Assembly (NCBI RefSeq): GCF_030384665.1
Contig: NC_083680.1
Location: 715,001-779,000 of the forward strand
DNA from: Lodderomyces elongisporus
Taxonomy: Eukaryota > Ascomycota > Pichiomycetes > Serinales > Debaryomycetaceae
Direction: 5' to 3'
Length of the DNA stretch: 64,000 bases
The position numbers and the translations under genes were made by a program. The first letter of the stretch is position 1. Each line of letters begins with the position of its first letter. Shown piece after piece: positions 32,882 through 60,246 of the stretch. The notes under the pieces were generated by a model. It was not told where the DNA came from and made no database searches. It saw only the letters and a list, made by a program, of their open reading frames with translations.

Positions 32882-32972
32882 TATTTAAGATTTAATTAAG
32901 TAAACTAACTGGTAAAGTCTGACTTGTTTAAACTGTATTAAGCGAGACTTTGGTTGTGGGTTTACTTCTGGC
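32775..32972 (-). repeat. Right arm of near-perfect inverted repeat
   Basis: 198 bp partner of 31944-32142, covering the first ~35 codons of the truncated array gene copy and its leader. The leader differs visibly from that of the seven full copies (TTAATTAAATCTTAAATA here, against an AATTTTTAAG-proximal leader there). The two arms therefore resemble each other more than either resembles the neighbouring tandem units. Confidence 0.85.
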
Positions 32973-33375
32973 GAAAGAAGAAGGAAAAGAAAAAGAAAAA
33001 GGAAAAGAAGAAGAAGAAAAGGGCAAAAAAAGGTTTGAGGTCACAAGGGTTTTGTTTGTGGATATTTATACTTCACCAAGTAGCCCTCTCGCCACGCCTT
33101 GTGGTTGGAGACTAACAAGTAAATTGTGTTATGCCATATACATTGTGGTTGCAAAACCCGCGAGGAAGTGAGGGGAACAGAAGGGCGTGTGCAATTGTAT
33201 ACGCTACCAAATGCTTCATAACAAAAAACCAAATGGGTGCTGCCAAATGGGGTGTGGCCAATAGTGTGTGGCTGTAGCAGAAAACGGACGACTAGAGTGG
33301 ATGAATTGTGTGTTTGGATGCATGTTGGCTCAACACAATCTACAACCTTATACATCCTGCAATGCATTCTATCTC

Positions 33376-33433
33376 CACAAACAATTCTCGACGGATTGCC
33401 GTCAAGCTTGCAACGAGTCGAGAATTGTTTGTG
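33376..33433. repeat. 17-bp perfect inverted repeat (hairpin), one per unit
   Basis: Arms CACAAACAATTCTCGAC (33376-33392) and its exact complement at 33417-33433, with a 24-nt loop. A nested hairpin GACGG-ATTG-CCGTC overlaps the left arm and loop, so two alternative folds are possible. The same element recurs in every unit (for example 37282-37339), about 500 bp upstream of each gene start. In the old inverted copy at the left edge, homology to the unit ends at its degraded remnant. Confidence 0.85.
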
Positions 33434-56179: not shown

Positions 56180-58589
56180 TTTAGAATTTGATTAAGTAAA
56201 CTAACAGGTAAAGTCTGACTTGTTTAAAACGTAGTGAGACTTTGGTTGTGGGTTTACTTCTGGCGAAAGAAGAAGGAAAAGAAAAAGAAAAAGGAAAAGA
56301 AGAAGAAGAAAAGGGCAAAAAAAGGTTTGAGGTCACAAGGGTTTTGTTTGTGGATATTTATACTTCACCAAGTAGCCCTCTCGCCACGCCTTGTGGTTGG
56401 AGACTAACAAGTAAATTGTGTTATGCCATATACATTGTGGTTGCAAAACCCGCGAGGAAGTGAGGGGAACAGAAGGGCGTGTGCAATTGTATACGCTACC
56501 AAATGCTTCATAACAAAAAACCAAATGGGTGCTGCCAAATGGGGTGTGGCCAATAGTGTGTGGCTGTAGCAGAAAACGGACGACTAGAGTGGATGAATTG
56601 TGTGTTTGGATGCATGTTGGCTCAACACAATCTACAACCTTATACATCCTGCAATGCATTCTATCTCCACAAACAATTCTCGACGGATTGCCGTCAAGCT
56701 TGCAACGAGTCGAGAATTGTTTGTGTGTGTTGATTATTCCCCTGAGTTTGGTGCGAATTTACGGGAAAACTTTTTTCTGCTGAAGTTTGAGGACAATTGT
56801 GGGCTCAGCTGCCCACTGTAGTGTTTTTTGTAAAGTTCTTTGTAAAGTTTTTTGTAAAGTTTTTTGTAAAGTTCTTTGTAAAGTTTTTTGTAAAGTTTTT
56901 TGTAAAGTTTTTTGTAAAGTACACACGCACCCGCGCGCGTCCATCTTACGTGTATATTACGTGTATCTTAGGTTGACTCGTTCACAGCAGCTCACGTGCG
57001 CGTATACATACACATACTCCAACCCGAGATACTCTAGTTTGCAATGACAGCGATTGCGCGAAATATACAGAACGTCCAATTTGAGAAATAATTTGTAGGC
57101 AGAGTGCGAGATAGAAGAATGGTTCAATTACAAATAGCAGAGTGTATACAAAAACAGAAAGGTGTGTTAATATTAGAAAGAAAAGTGTAAAGATTAATAG
57201 CAAAAGTCATCGAGTCCCCCACCTTGATGTGTTCCTGAAAACGAGTGAAAGCTGTATATGTTAAACGAGCGAAGATGCAGGTGCAATGGGAGATACCAAA
57301 AGTGTGTGCGTGCCAGTGACGGATAAAATAAGTAGTAGCAGGGCCCTTTGTGGTGTATGAACACGGGCACACTTTTTGGCGAGCTCCCCTTCTTTGGGAT
57401 CATGGCTGGGTTTGTGATATAGTCGGCCATGGAGCAGCAACATCAATAGTAGAAACAGCAATAGCAGGAACAGCATCAGCAACAGCATCAGCAACACCAC
57501 CAGAAATAACACCAGAAATAACACCAGAAGTAGCACCAGAAGTAACACCAGAAGTAGCACCAGAAGTAACACCAGAAGTAACACCAGAAGTAACACCAGA
57601 AGTAACACCAGAAGTAACACCAGAAACATCCTTGACAAATTTGAATGGCATGGTTTAAGTTTGGTCGACACTGGATAGCACACACTATGATAAATATGTT
57701 AAGTATAATAAATATGATAAATATTAGTGGTGGTAGCGGTCGTAGTAATGGTGGTGGTGGTAGTGGTGGTAGTGGTGGTAGTAGTAGTAGTAGTGGTGGT
57801 GGTAGTAGTAGTAGTGGTGGTAGTGGTGGTAATAGTAGTAGTAGTGGTGGTGGTGGTGGTAGTAGTAGTAGTAGTGGTGGTGGTGGTGGTGGTAGTAGTA
57901 GTAGTGGTAGTAATGCTATTACTTCACGAGCAAACAATGATTTAATGTAACATAAACAAATCCCGAAAACGAAAGTAGATTCCGCAAGCTCTTCTTCTGC
58001 ACCATCTGAAACAACTTGCACGGTGACTTATACAACTCAACCTGTGATTATATGATCCCGCTGTGCCTTGTTGATACTCCTAGTGCATATGCGTCCTCGA
58101 CATTTTTCGTTCCCCGTACAAGATCATACGACAAAGGCGCCATTTTGTCGCAGGATCTGCCAAGTTCAGAATAAATGTGTGAGTCAGCAGATACACTAGT
58201 GCAATGTTGTGGTAGGCTATGGGAAACGGTAGCAGAGGTCAGTGGGCTCCCCCTGCTTTGGGATCATGGTTGGGTTTGTGATATAGTCATCCGTGAAGCA
58301 GCAACAGAGGTAACATCAGAAAAAGCAGCAGGAATAGCAGTAGGGATATCAGTAGAAATAGCAGTAGAAATAGCAGTAGAAATAGCAGTAGAAATAGCAG
58401 TAGAAATAGCAGTAGAAATAGCAGTAGGAATAGCAATAGAAATAGCAGTAGGAATAGCAGGAATAGCAGGAATAGCAGTAGGAATATCAGCCACACGGGT
58501 TTGCTTTTCATTTTTTGTTTGCAATTAGCACCAGTGATTAGGTTGAAGATGAATGGGTAGAAGATGGGCTAAGAAAGAGCTCGACTCCT

Positions 58590-59945
58590 TCAGATTGATT
58601 CAGAGCTTGAGGGTCTCAGATCGCAGCAAAACATTTCGGCCAACTTTCTCTGAATAAAGGATTTTTCTTTTCTAGGACGTTGATATATGCGATCAAAGTC
58701 CTTCATCTTCAATGGACCTTCCACCAGGTTCAAATGAAAATTGAAAAGATTGTAAATCCAAAGAGCATACTTCTCAGACAATTTGCGCCTACTCTGACAT
58801 AATCGAGAGACCCCGCTTGGACTGTCCTTAAACCAATCATCAATATAATACCAAACTCTATGGTCCCCATCATCTGCATATGCAGCACATATTACAAACT
58901 TGAAGCCGTATCTTTCTTTGGCAGCTAGAAAAGATACGTCTTCTAAAAAGCGATAATTATCCCACCAATCCCAAGCCTCATTTTCTGGGAACTTCCGAGT
59001 TTCCGTGAGCCTGAAATTGTTGGGATGGCGACGTGATATAGCAGATTCCTTGCCATTCCGGGAAAACTTGTATTCCAATAAAAACTCTGTCCTATAGTCG
59101 AGATTGCGTGTTACAACGAAGTATTTGGTTTTCGTCTTTAACTGCATCTCGACTAATTGAAGGACAGGTATAAGTAGCGACTCATACTCGTCCTCGCCAA
59201 GTATTTCAGGGAGCCACCTGATCACATTTTCAAATTCTCTCTTTGTGACCCGGTGTACAATAAACTTCCTATCACCCGATTTGTAATTTCCATTCTCAAG
59301 TTTTGTGAGTCCTTGAGAAATGGACTGTACGTATTCGGAATCCGAGAAGCCCATTGAAGCTCTGATTTCCTGACACAGTCGAGGACAGTATGACTCTAAG
59401 TTTGCTACAAACTTTCCGTATGTGAAAGGTTTGCAGCTGTTGTTGTTGTTGTTGTTGTTGTTGTTGTTGTTGTTGTTGTTGTTGTTGTTGAGGTTGTTGT
59501 TGTTGAGGTTGTTGAGGTTGTTGTTGTTGTTGTTGTTGTTGTTGTTGTTGTTGTTGTTGTTGTTGTTGTTGTTGTTGTTGTTGTTGTTGTTGTTGTTATT
59601 CATCTTCTTCTTCTTCTTCTTTCTGTTGGGATGCAACGCACGAATGCCGGCAACCATCCCCTTAGCCAAAAGAACCCTTTCAGCTAACTCCTTCTCCTCT
59701 CTCCTCTCTTTAAACCATCCAAATGGTCTAAACAGGGGGAATTGTCTCCTCACCAGCTTCTTTTCCTCCACGTCTTCAGCGCCTAAATCTATCTCGTAGA
59801 AGGTTTCCGACCCTGTAGCCGGTGAAGGAACCGATACTGGTGAGCCTGATGTCTCCCCTGGAATTGGATACCGAACATTGCGTTCGGCTGGTTCTGCCTC
59901 CTTTGACTTGGAGGCGGTGTTAAAAAGCTTCTTAAAAATTTTCAT
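58590..59945 (-). CDS. Array protein copy 7 (rightmost, shortest tract)
   Basis: 451 aa with a 54-residue Asn tract (nt 59439-59600) and three Leu interruptions. It has the Tyr variant after the tract (as copy 3), a private Val-to-Leu change (VANLESY), and the synonymous change shared with copy 6. Its upstream region has small private differences (GATAGAAGAAGG, one extra GAA). Only about 300 bp of promoter-side repeat remain before the array ends, so this copy lacks the upstream hairpin and minisatellite A that the other copies have. Confidence 0.82.
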   Translation of the reverse strand: MKIFKKLFNTASKSKEAEPAERNVRYPIPGETSGSPVSVPSPATGSETFYEIDLGAEDVEEKKLVRRQFPLFRPFGWFKERREEKELAERVLLAKGMVAGIRALHPNRKKKKKKMNNNNNNNNNNNNNNNNNNNNNNNNNNNNLNNLNNNNLNNNNNNNNNNNNNNNNNSCKPFTYGKFVANLESYCPRLCQEIRASMGFSDSEYVQSISQGLTKLENGNYKSGDRKFIVHRVTKREFENVIRWLPEILGEDEYESLLIPVLQLVEMQLKTKTKYFVVTRNLDYRTEFLLEYKFSRNGKESAISRRHPNNFRLTETRKFPENEAWDWWDNYRFLEDVSFLAAKERYGFKFVICAAYADDGDHRVWYYIDDWFKDSPSGVSRLCQSRRKLSEKYALWIYNLFNFHLNLVEGPLKMKDFDRIYQRPRKEKSFIQRKLAEMFCCDLRPSSSESI

Positions 59946-60246
59946 TTTAGAATTTGATTAAGTAAACTAACAGGTAAAGTCTGACTTGTTTAAAACGTAG
60001 TGAGACTTTGGTTGTGGGTTTACTTCTGGCGATAGAAGAAGGAAAAGAAAAAGAAAAAGGAAAAGAAGAAGAAGAAGAAAAGGGCAAAAAAAGGTTTGAG
60101 GTCACAAGGGTTTTGTTTGTGGATATTTATACTTCACCAAGTAGCCCTCTCGCCACGCCTTGTGGTTGGAGACTAACAAGTAAATTGTGTTATGCCATAT
60201 ACATTGTGGTTGCAAAACCCGCGAGGAAGTGAGGGGAACAGAAGGG

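Follow-up and report, generated by a model that had tools for sequence, protein, structure and literature searches.

Inverted repeats flank the regional centromeres of S. pombe (its outer repeats), C. tropicalis and C. parapsilosis, and the C. albicans major repeat sequence, whose tandem copies vary in number, forms about one multi-kb zone on each chromosome. Mammals possess a kinase-dead paralogue of the phosphatidylinositol-phosphate kinases (PIPKs), PIP5KL1. The Lodderomyces elongisporus repeats analyzed here resemble each of these systems in part. Like the major repeat sequence, they occupy roughly one multi-kb zone per chromosome, but each unit carries a PIPK-derived gene, and the likeness is one of description only. 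The encoded proteins share with PIP5KL1 the PIPK fold and, as predicted from their residues, the loss of catalysis; PIP5KL1, however, is a single gene and not an array, and we claim no kinship beyond the fold. As at regional centromeres, a gene-free core lies between inverted arrays on chromosome C2, but there the flanks consist of open protein-coding genes in long tandem arrays, and the other array edges that we read had no adjacent core.

The window, the whole stretch of 64,000 nucleotides that we analyzed, corresponds to C8:715001-779000, and positions without a chromosome label refer to it. The preliminary description had reported a seven-copy direct array of nearly identical units of about 3.8 kb, each with the same minus-strand gene. 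Indeed, an ORF scan of the window gave seven full minus-strand ORFs of 451-516 aa, one per unit and all open, and self-BLAST found direct repeats spanning 32475-60246. The genes, all of family A and predicted to encode pseudo-PIPKs, lie on the minus strand at 35310-36764 (unit 1, 484 aa), 39192-40580 (unit 2, 462 aa), 42979-44529 (unit 3, 516 aa), 46939-48360 (unit 4, 473 aa), 50818-52341 (unit 5, 507 aa), 54716-56179 (unit 6, 487 aa) and 58590-59945 (unit 7, 451 aa; here the PIPK-like region follows the Asn tract, from residue 170 on). The unit array runs from 35310 to 60246, its right end being formed by the promoter side of unit 7 (59946-60246), and the spacings are 3882, 3787, 3960, 3879, 3898 and 3874 bp. 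When units 1-6 were aligned, 31 of 3739 ungapped columns were variable and a further 377 columns contained gaps; the Asn-rich tract varies from 54 to 119 residues across the seven genes.

The left edge had been placed at 32882, but repeat homology begins at 32475, and the ORF on the minus strand at 32381-32881 represents an eighth copy, cut short: it is a single A/C chimera in which an A-type N-terminus is fused to sequence of family C (94.6% over 129 bp against that family). Homology extends further left to about 31545 through broken copies, with pieces of promoter and gene start in a broken inverted copy at 31545-32143 on the plus strand (four BLAST pieces, 80-89%). The flanking genes recognized by Pfam are of single-copy type, as had been noted: to the left they encode Sec5 and a Reb1-like Myb protein, to the right a CS-domain protein. 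For the nearest flanking ORFs (28854-31232 and 61451-62101) Pfam gave no convincing match; we take the former to be CCZ1. Rfam and tRNA scans of the window yielded one tRNA-Ala only, outside the array. The initial view that the array is neither telomere nor rDNA was right, and no transposon domain was found in the genes tested.

The array had also been seen as lying alone in an otherwise ordinary chromosome arm. This is not so: three sequence patterns detected 139-144 backbone units in the genome (0 in reversed-pattern controls), so the window array is not isolated. Backbone patterns and protein searches placed copies on C2-C8, seven of the eight chromosomes, and none on C1, among the matches listed. 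In the assembly of strain NRRL YB-4239 (GCA_030384665.1; 16,086,460 bp in total, N50 2,328,861 bp), the arrays account for about 3.4% of the genome. The copies lie in one zone per chromosome, in about a dozen clusters; when 12 clusters were placed at random, one zone of ≤190 kb per chromosome arose in 5e-5 of trials, both the cluster list and the test having been drawn up after the data were seen. Clustering of this kind may also reflect local spread, which counts against reading the zones as centromeric. Arrays are convergent on C2 and divergent on C3 and C8. From ORFs of ≥300 aa chosen by a C- or N-terminal peptide, we collected 37 complete A and 21 complete B ORFs; broken copies, which besides those of the window lie at C8:824.5-825.9 kb and at about 2399-2402 kb on C2, are outside this count. 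Passages of Koren 2010 describe skewed DNA of two chromosomes as 'flanked by long repetitive DNA'; for two further chromosomes they mention 'a single long repetitive region' apiece.

The protein had at first seemed impossible to assign to a family. Profile searches with the C-terminal region assigned it to the PIP-kinase fold. Against PDB chains, a joint profile gave PI5P4K-beta as best chain (3x09_A, E 7.8e-14), the match running from the N-lobe through the catalytic-loop region; a B/F profile reached E 7.2e-10 and an A/C profile E 1.8e-5. Among the 23 sequences listed for the joint profile, 17 were type II kinases and 4 type I. L. elongisporus Mss4 matched a family profile weakly (25.5 bits, with high low-complexity bias). 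PI5P4K belongs with yeast Mss4 and Fab1 to Pfam PF01504, for which A scored 20.5 bits (20.2 with CTG read as Ser) and B 24.6, both below the curated cut-off of 27 bits; families C, D and F gave no Pfam match at E 0.1. A genome search with PF01504 listed two loci, neither in the arrays, and precomputed PF01504 labels are present on the family proteins P0008 and P0009. Judged by these profile matches, the C-terminal region is a degenerate PIPK domain. It differs from PI5P4K in its replaced catalytic residues, its low-complexity inserts and its arrangement in tandem arrays.

The ATP-binding lysine, which we take to be K150 of PI5P4K-beta, is lost in all four families aligned (H in A, Y in B and F, S in C), family B having a lysine one position further on. 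The catalytic aspartate of MDYSLL, presumably D278, has become G in A and B; family F and the L029 copies of C have N there, and the sole subtype to retain D is the one of family C represented by P0005 and L030. Near the IID metal-binding position, A and B have an aspartate, judged visually and from an alignment with Fab1; C and F offer no clear counterpart. Since the ATP lysine is lost, and the catalytic aspartate is lost in all but one subtype, the array proteins are predicted to be pseudokinases and look unable to act as kinases. A motif that we take to be PP1-docking-like is found as KVRF in B, C and D and as VRY in A, and is absent in F. Some PVL30 gene models (P0003, P0006 and P0009) splice out low-complexity tracts, which we think is simple-repeat masking.

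At least six gene families are found on one non-coding backbone, composed in each unit of a promoter side, an inverted repeat, a 3′ block and simple-repeat tracts. The promoter-side block (36781-37064, also at 32900, 40597, 44546, 48377, 52358, 56196 and 59962) has a portion, 36933-37050, in which 107 of 120 columns are invariant in five families. The inverted repeat (24 bp with a 10-bp spacer, 37282-37339) has a strict core that occurs seven times in the window, at 33381, 37287, 41074, 45037, 48883, 52835 and 56673; D and B units have similar inverted repeats and an F unit a 15-bp one. On the 3′ side of the genes, the conserved block at 38501-38905 (also at 34643, 42312, 46272, 50151, 54073 and 57911) contains 166 invariant columns out of 180 in five families (38607-38786). 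A 366-bp backbone block is identical in all seven units of the window; the 30 C2 units match it at 99-100% (rounded), none of them exactly. Between A and C, the backbone is 88% identical over 1946 columns, reaching 95% in a 484-bp piece, and the kinase domain has a pS of 0.72, with synonymous sites near saturation, and a pN of 0.40; the backbone is thus better conserved than the proteins. Backbone similarity could itself be due to constraint, a point against backbone conversion. We also weighed whether the spacer encodes a second gene, but dismissed this since families A and C differ by a frameshift in the candidate ORF (starting MIPKQG).

The explanation that we prefer, and to which we give slightly less than an even chance, is that these are protein-coding, centromere-zone repeats homogenized via their backbone and carrying kinase-dead PIPK cassettes. 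The alternative to be weighed most seriously, although we consider it unlikely, is protein dosage: the pseudo-PIPKs would be beneficial, for example in phosphoinositide damping or in virus or toxin sensing, with selection keeping copies and diversifying families. The 37 and 21 complete A and B ORFs, the constraint between A and C (pN below pS) and the identity of only 24-45% between the kinase parts of different families all fit this idea. Family D, however, has lost most of its kinase domain yet has amplified: the one unit read retains an 87-residue remnant with stops, and all 27 D-like matches listed (16 on C7, 7 on C8 and 4 on C3) have the same stop pattern. The superior conservation of the backbone also argues against dosage. 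Within arrays, differences are too few to show selection either way and dN/dS is uninformative (12 differences in A and 9 in B, with ratios of 0.41, 0.60, 1.25 and 0.55; copies dropped for length were 2/37 for the A C-terminal part, 7/37 for the A N-terminal part and 2/21 for the B C-terminal part). The suggestion that the protein is hypervariable stood for tract length (Asn tracts of 54-136 residues, as measured in 35 of the 37 A copies) and between families, but the kinase-like domain hardly varies within arrays, its 847 bp forming one haplotype in all 30 C2 copies and five in the seven window copies.

A selfish role, with units acting as poison-antidote or meiotic drivers and arrays growing through spores, appears distinctly unlikely. 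It would suit the recent homogenization (recent amplification or ongoing homogenization had been called correctly from the window), the several paralogous families and the naming of matches in one species only in the searches made; no relatives in other species were named in protein searches, two of which scored 8000 and 7999 candidates. Ascospores are reported for L. elongisporus in a passage of PMC10484426. On the other hand, Pfam recognized no domain of known drivers among the genes tested, and there is no paired second ORF, the spacer ORF being frame-shifted between A and C. An array derived from a transposon or virus is very improbable: the units are multi-copy and on seven chromosomes, but most of the copies listed belong to a small number of tandem arrays and few stand alone, PIPK is a cellular fold, and Pfam scans of seven array proteins (from families A, B, C, D and F) matched no mobility enzyme, whether transposase, reverse transcriptase or integrase. 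Although the array is longer than the average read (13 kb) and its exact copy number could be off, its units can be told apart by single bases and by the lengths of their tracts, and the assembly was made from PacBio HiFi reads of >20 kb (PMC10586162), so a duplication artefact is extremely unlikely, the more so as family members occur in other NRRL YB-4239 records, on a contig of different length (P0004 and P0008), and repetitive zones were noted in 2010, in the passages cited above.

Bearing on the centromeric part of our preferred explanation, two convergent arrays on C2, with differing families on each side, flank a gene-free core of about 5.9 kb (34% GC, no ORF >85 aa), the left 2.3 kb of which was found once in the genome. 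At 2299.7 kb, GC skew switches from negative to positive and AT skew does the reverse, a switch of the type known from centromeres and origins (0 of 500 block shuffles as strong). The skew score of the core was 0.55, gene-bearing window DNA reaching up to 0.47; the top score in C2:2290-2310 kb (0.67, at 2304.45 kb) falls at the first B unit, outside the core. Apart from C2, the edges covered were both sides of the window array, where genes adjoin, the right ends of C4 and C5, where long ORFs adjoin, and C4 left, where the reading extended approximately 0.6 kb beyond the repeats; no core was seen at any of them. A centromere near 20 kb of the window, in its largest gap (18.2-22.2 kb), was rejected because the strongest skew switch there is of the opposite sign. 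According to a passage of PMC7263194, the centromeres of L. elongisporus consist mostly of unique sequence and lack inverted repeats.

In the preferred explanation, each unit would consist of the shared non-coding backbone and a single cassette whose gene descends from a PIP-kinase fold, and the backbone, rather than protein dosage, would drive spread and homogenization. Both would proceed by unequal exchange and by gene conversion between arrays, possibly beginning at the inverted repeat. The zones would be near centromeres, and the proteins may be conserved passengers or regulators, most likely as a kinase-dead PIPK scaffold that acts on Mss4 or at phosphoinositide membranes. Of these steps, the link to centromeres and the role of the proteins are the least secure. 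A more specific version, in which a backbone spread over seven chromosomes and homogenized between them hosts interchangeable pseudo-lipid-kinase cassettes, with the C2 arrays as inverted centromere flanks, is possible but falls well short of probable. In that case the C2 arrays would enclose a unique core, and the pseudokinase gene family would be the structural flank of a regional centromere.

We found no description of a pseudokinase array family in the literature at the level of titles and abstracts. Long arrays of such a gene family make up about 3.4% of the genome here, in a yeast that is emerging in humans; in these arrays a homogenized backbone carries old, diverged and constrained cassettes, making satellite spread and gene function separable questions. 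If the zones are centromeric, they would provide candidate sequences for the centromeres of L. elongisporus, which until now are known from prediction alone, and would exemplify protein-encoding satellites.

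Direct repeats span positions 32475-60246 in a self-comparison of the window and contain seven complete ORFs (451-516 aa, minus strand, 35310-59945), so the seven-copy array reported in the preliminary description is real. Its extent had been underestimated, however; the array belongs to a genome-wide repeat family with 139-144 matches to a non-coding backbone common to all units, each unit carrying in addition one gene, or cassette, of family A, B, C, D, F or G (family A in the window). The units are spaced 3787-3960 bp apart and, in an alignment of units 1-6, 31 of 3739 ungapped columns are variable and 377 columns contain gaps. 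The left end of the array shows the pieces of a broken inverted copy (about 31545-32143) and a truncated copy (32381-32881). Since the latter has an A-type start and a far end matching family C at 94.6% over 129 bp, it records directly that families have recombined. A gene for a Reb1-like Myb protein is found at 26978-28477, about 3-4 kb off the array end.

The genome searched consisted of 8 contigs (16,086,460 bp), the window being C8:715001-779000, and those protein hits that bear a species name come from L. elongisporus; the NRRL YB-4239 assembly was made from PacBio HiFi reads (excerpt of PMC10586162). Backbone patterns of 64, 28 and 33 bases, allowing up to 3, 3 and 2 mismatches, gave 144, 143 and 139 matches genome-wide, respectively, while reversed control patterns gave 0. 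From the listed backbone matches and from two protein searches, one scoring 94 out of 307 candidates and the other 72 out of 223, copies were placed on chromosomes C2 to C8, the counts being lower bounds. C2 carries at least 30 family A units at 2182.7-2295.7 kb (plus strand) and, at about 2304-2402 kb (minus strand), at least 28 backbone copies with 27 family B gene matches. On C3, a left block with at least 14 backbone copies and D-like genes (550-613 kb) is followed by family C at 613-618 kb; a right block at 661-665 kb, on the opposite strand to the latter, has at least 2 backbone copies and family C. We found at least 1 F and 9 B copies on C4, at least 12 of family G on C5, at least 12 F at 774-820 kb plus a single G-like copy at 913 kb on C6, and at least 16 D-like matches on C7. 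Besides the seven copies in the window, C8 has one broken family A copy at 824 kb, one F at 872.8 kb and at least 7 D-like matches at 899-934 kb. No backbone match fell on C1 among the 100 listed per pattern, all of them mismatch-free, and C1 may still hold mismatched copies. The D label comes from one unit read as DNA on C7 (L033), from the related protein P0007 and a common stop pattern on C3, and from the stop pattern alone on C8; family G units were placed by searches. The lone broken A copy (L031, C8:824.5-825.9 kb) has a stop and a frame change, and its kinase domain retains about 94% protein identity to A. Summed block lengths, excluding the gene-free C2 core between the A and B arrays, come to about 0.55 Mb, which is 3.4% of the whole genome. 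A literature search found no description of these arrays in the titles or displayed abstracts of the papers listed, the sole earlier notice found being a figure legend in the portion consulted of Koren et al. 2010 (PMC2924309).

Because CTG encodes serine in L. elongisporus, translation table 12 was used for the proteins as well. PIP5K matches in Pfam were weak in families A (E 3e-4) and B (E 2e-5), where they fell short of the curated cut-off, and absent in C, D and F. A profile search nonetheless placed the C-terminal region that had previously been assigned to no family: a joint profile of A, C, B and F matched the type II phosphatidylinositol-phosphate kinase (PIPK) PI5P4K-beta in the PDB (E 7.8e-14), with 17 type II and 4 type I kinases among the 23 matches listed. 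Separate profiles, one of B and F plus the related proteins P0011 and P0008 (E 7.2e-10), the other of A and C plus P0002 and P0005 (E 1.8e-5), both reached PI5P4K-beta, so the PIPK fold, firmly predicted by profile, does not depend on any single family. With the PF01504 model, two loci were listed genome-wide, C2:1950.8 kb and C1:3023.8 kb, presumably MSS4 and FAB1, respectively; neither lies inside the arrays. Alignments strongly support loss of catalytic residues: the ATP-binding lysine is replaced by H, Y or S, and the catalytic aspartate by G or N, with D kept only in one C subtype, represented by P0005 and the genome stretch L030. As family B has a lysine one position after the lost one, we infer, rather than prove, that the array proteins are pseudokinases.

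A short hydrophobic-basic start is common to the array families, as is a low-complexity tract; the latter is rich in Asn in families A and C, of Asn/Thr type in B and F, and of Gln type in D. The published gene models of the array members P0003, P0006 and P0009 omit low-complexity tracts or extend into spacer, and are perhaps annotation artefacts of repeat masking. Two relatives come from ENA contigs: P0002 (contig of 5943 bp) is of A type and its Asn tract is short, and P0011 (contig of 2102 bp) is 467 aa long and related to families B and F. A KVRF motif, resembling a PP1-docking motif, occurs in the N-termini of B, C and D (L034, L029 and L033, respectively), has Y in place of F in family A, and is absent in family F.

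The D unit read has a 633-aa ORF with no Pfam match, and an 87-residue kinase-domain remnant with in-frame stops lies 3′ of its stop codon; all 27 of the 27 D-like matches listed have one TGA and two TAG within the matched stretch. The occurrence of D units in arrays despite this remnant argues that the kinase domain is dispensable for amplification.

The convergent A and B arrays of C2 surround about 5.9 kb (L021/L022, about 2297.6-2303.5 kb; 34% GC) with no ORF longer than 85 aa, the left 2.3 kb of which occurs once in the genome. At about 2299.7 kb, GC skew changes sign, from negative to positive, and AT skew does so in the opposite direction; none of 500 block shuffles, scored on a coarser grid, was as strong. 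This AT-rich core is a candidate centromere or origin. According to excerpts of Koren et al. 2010, L. elongisporus centromeres were predicted from a negative to positive GC skew, two of them having long repetitive DNA on their flanks, and two further chromosomes each have a single long repetitive region (PMC2924309); centromeres of this species that are mostly unique and lack inverted repeats are described in the part consulted of Ola et al. 2020 (PMC7263194). Skew scores reach 0.47 in gene-bearing window DNA vs. 0.55 in the C2 core, and the top score nearby (0.67) falls at 2304.45 kb, where the first B unit lies. Genes or long ORFs adjoin both ends of the window array and the right ends of the C4 and C5 arrays (about 0.6 kb past the repeats was read at the C4 left edge), which argues against a general rule of arrays beside such cores. 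The arrays form one cluster zone per chromosome beyond chance placement (12 clusters, P 5e-5; C3, C6 and C8 alone, 1.7e-4), with clusters defined after the data were seen; local spread is a possible explanation of this pattern. The largest ORF-poor gap in the window (18161-22218, about 4 kb, many simple repeats) shows a strong switch in GC skew whose direction, positive to negative, is the reverse of that in the C2 core.

Comparison of five families over the stretch between the start of one gene and the end of the next revealed a clear split between backbone and cassette at the sequence level. Backbones are 77-88% identical pairwise overall; BLAST pieces >200 bp lie between about 75 and 97%, with most of the longest unique-sequence pieces near or above 88%, and 166 columns of a 180-column block are invariant across the five. 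For the cassettes, Nei-Gojobori rates (table 12 code, Asn-Asn columns excluded) for the A vs. C kinase domain (236 codons) were pS 0.72 and pN 0.40, equivalent to dN 0.58 and a nearly saturated dS of 2.4, vs. dS 0.42 and dN 0.22 for the N-terminal region. Between A and B, the kinase domain gave pS 0.80 and pN 0.53, with the N-terminus contrasting less strongly (dN/dS 0.75). Diverged cassettes in a similar backbone indicate that the proteins are old and their kinase domain under constraint, the surrounding DNA being either homogenized across chromosomes or itself constrained.

Within family A, a 366-bp backbone block is identical in all seven window units and 99-100% identical, never exactly, in 30 C2 units, and one haplotype of the promoter block occurs in 5 of the 8 window copies and in 24 of the 25 on C2. 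The kinase domain (847 bp) has one haplotype in 30 of 30 C2 copies vs. five among the seven window copies. Among the A, D, B and F backbones examined, the first three have a 24-bp inverted repeat (10-bp spacer, 83-96% complementary) and F one of 15 bp; a strict core of the 24-bp repeat was found at 7 places in the window and at 48 in 200 kb of C2. Globally, we infer that the backbone may drive the spread of the units, that the array zones would lie near centromeres, and that the array proteins may have some cellular role.
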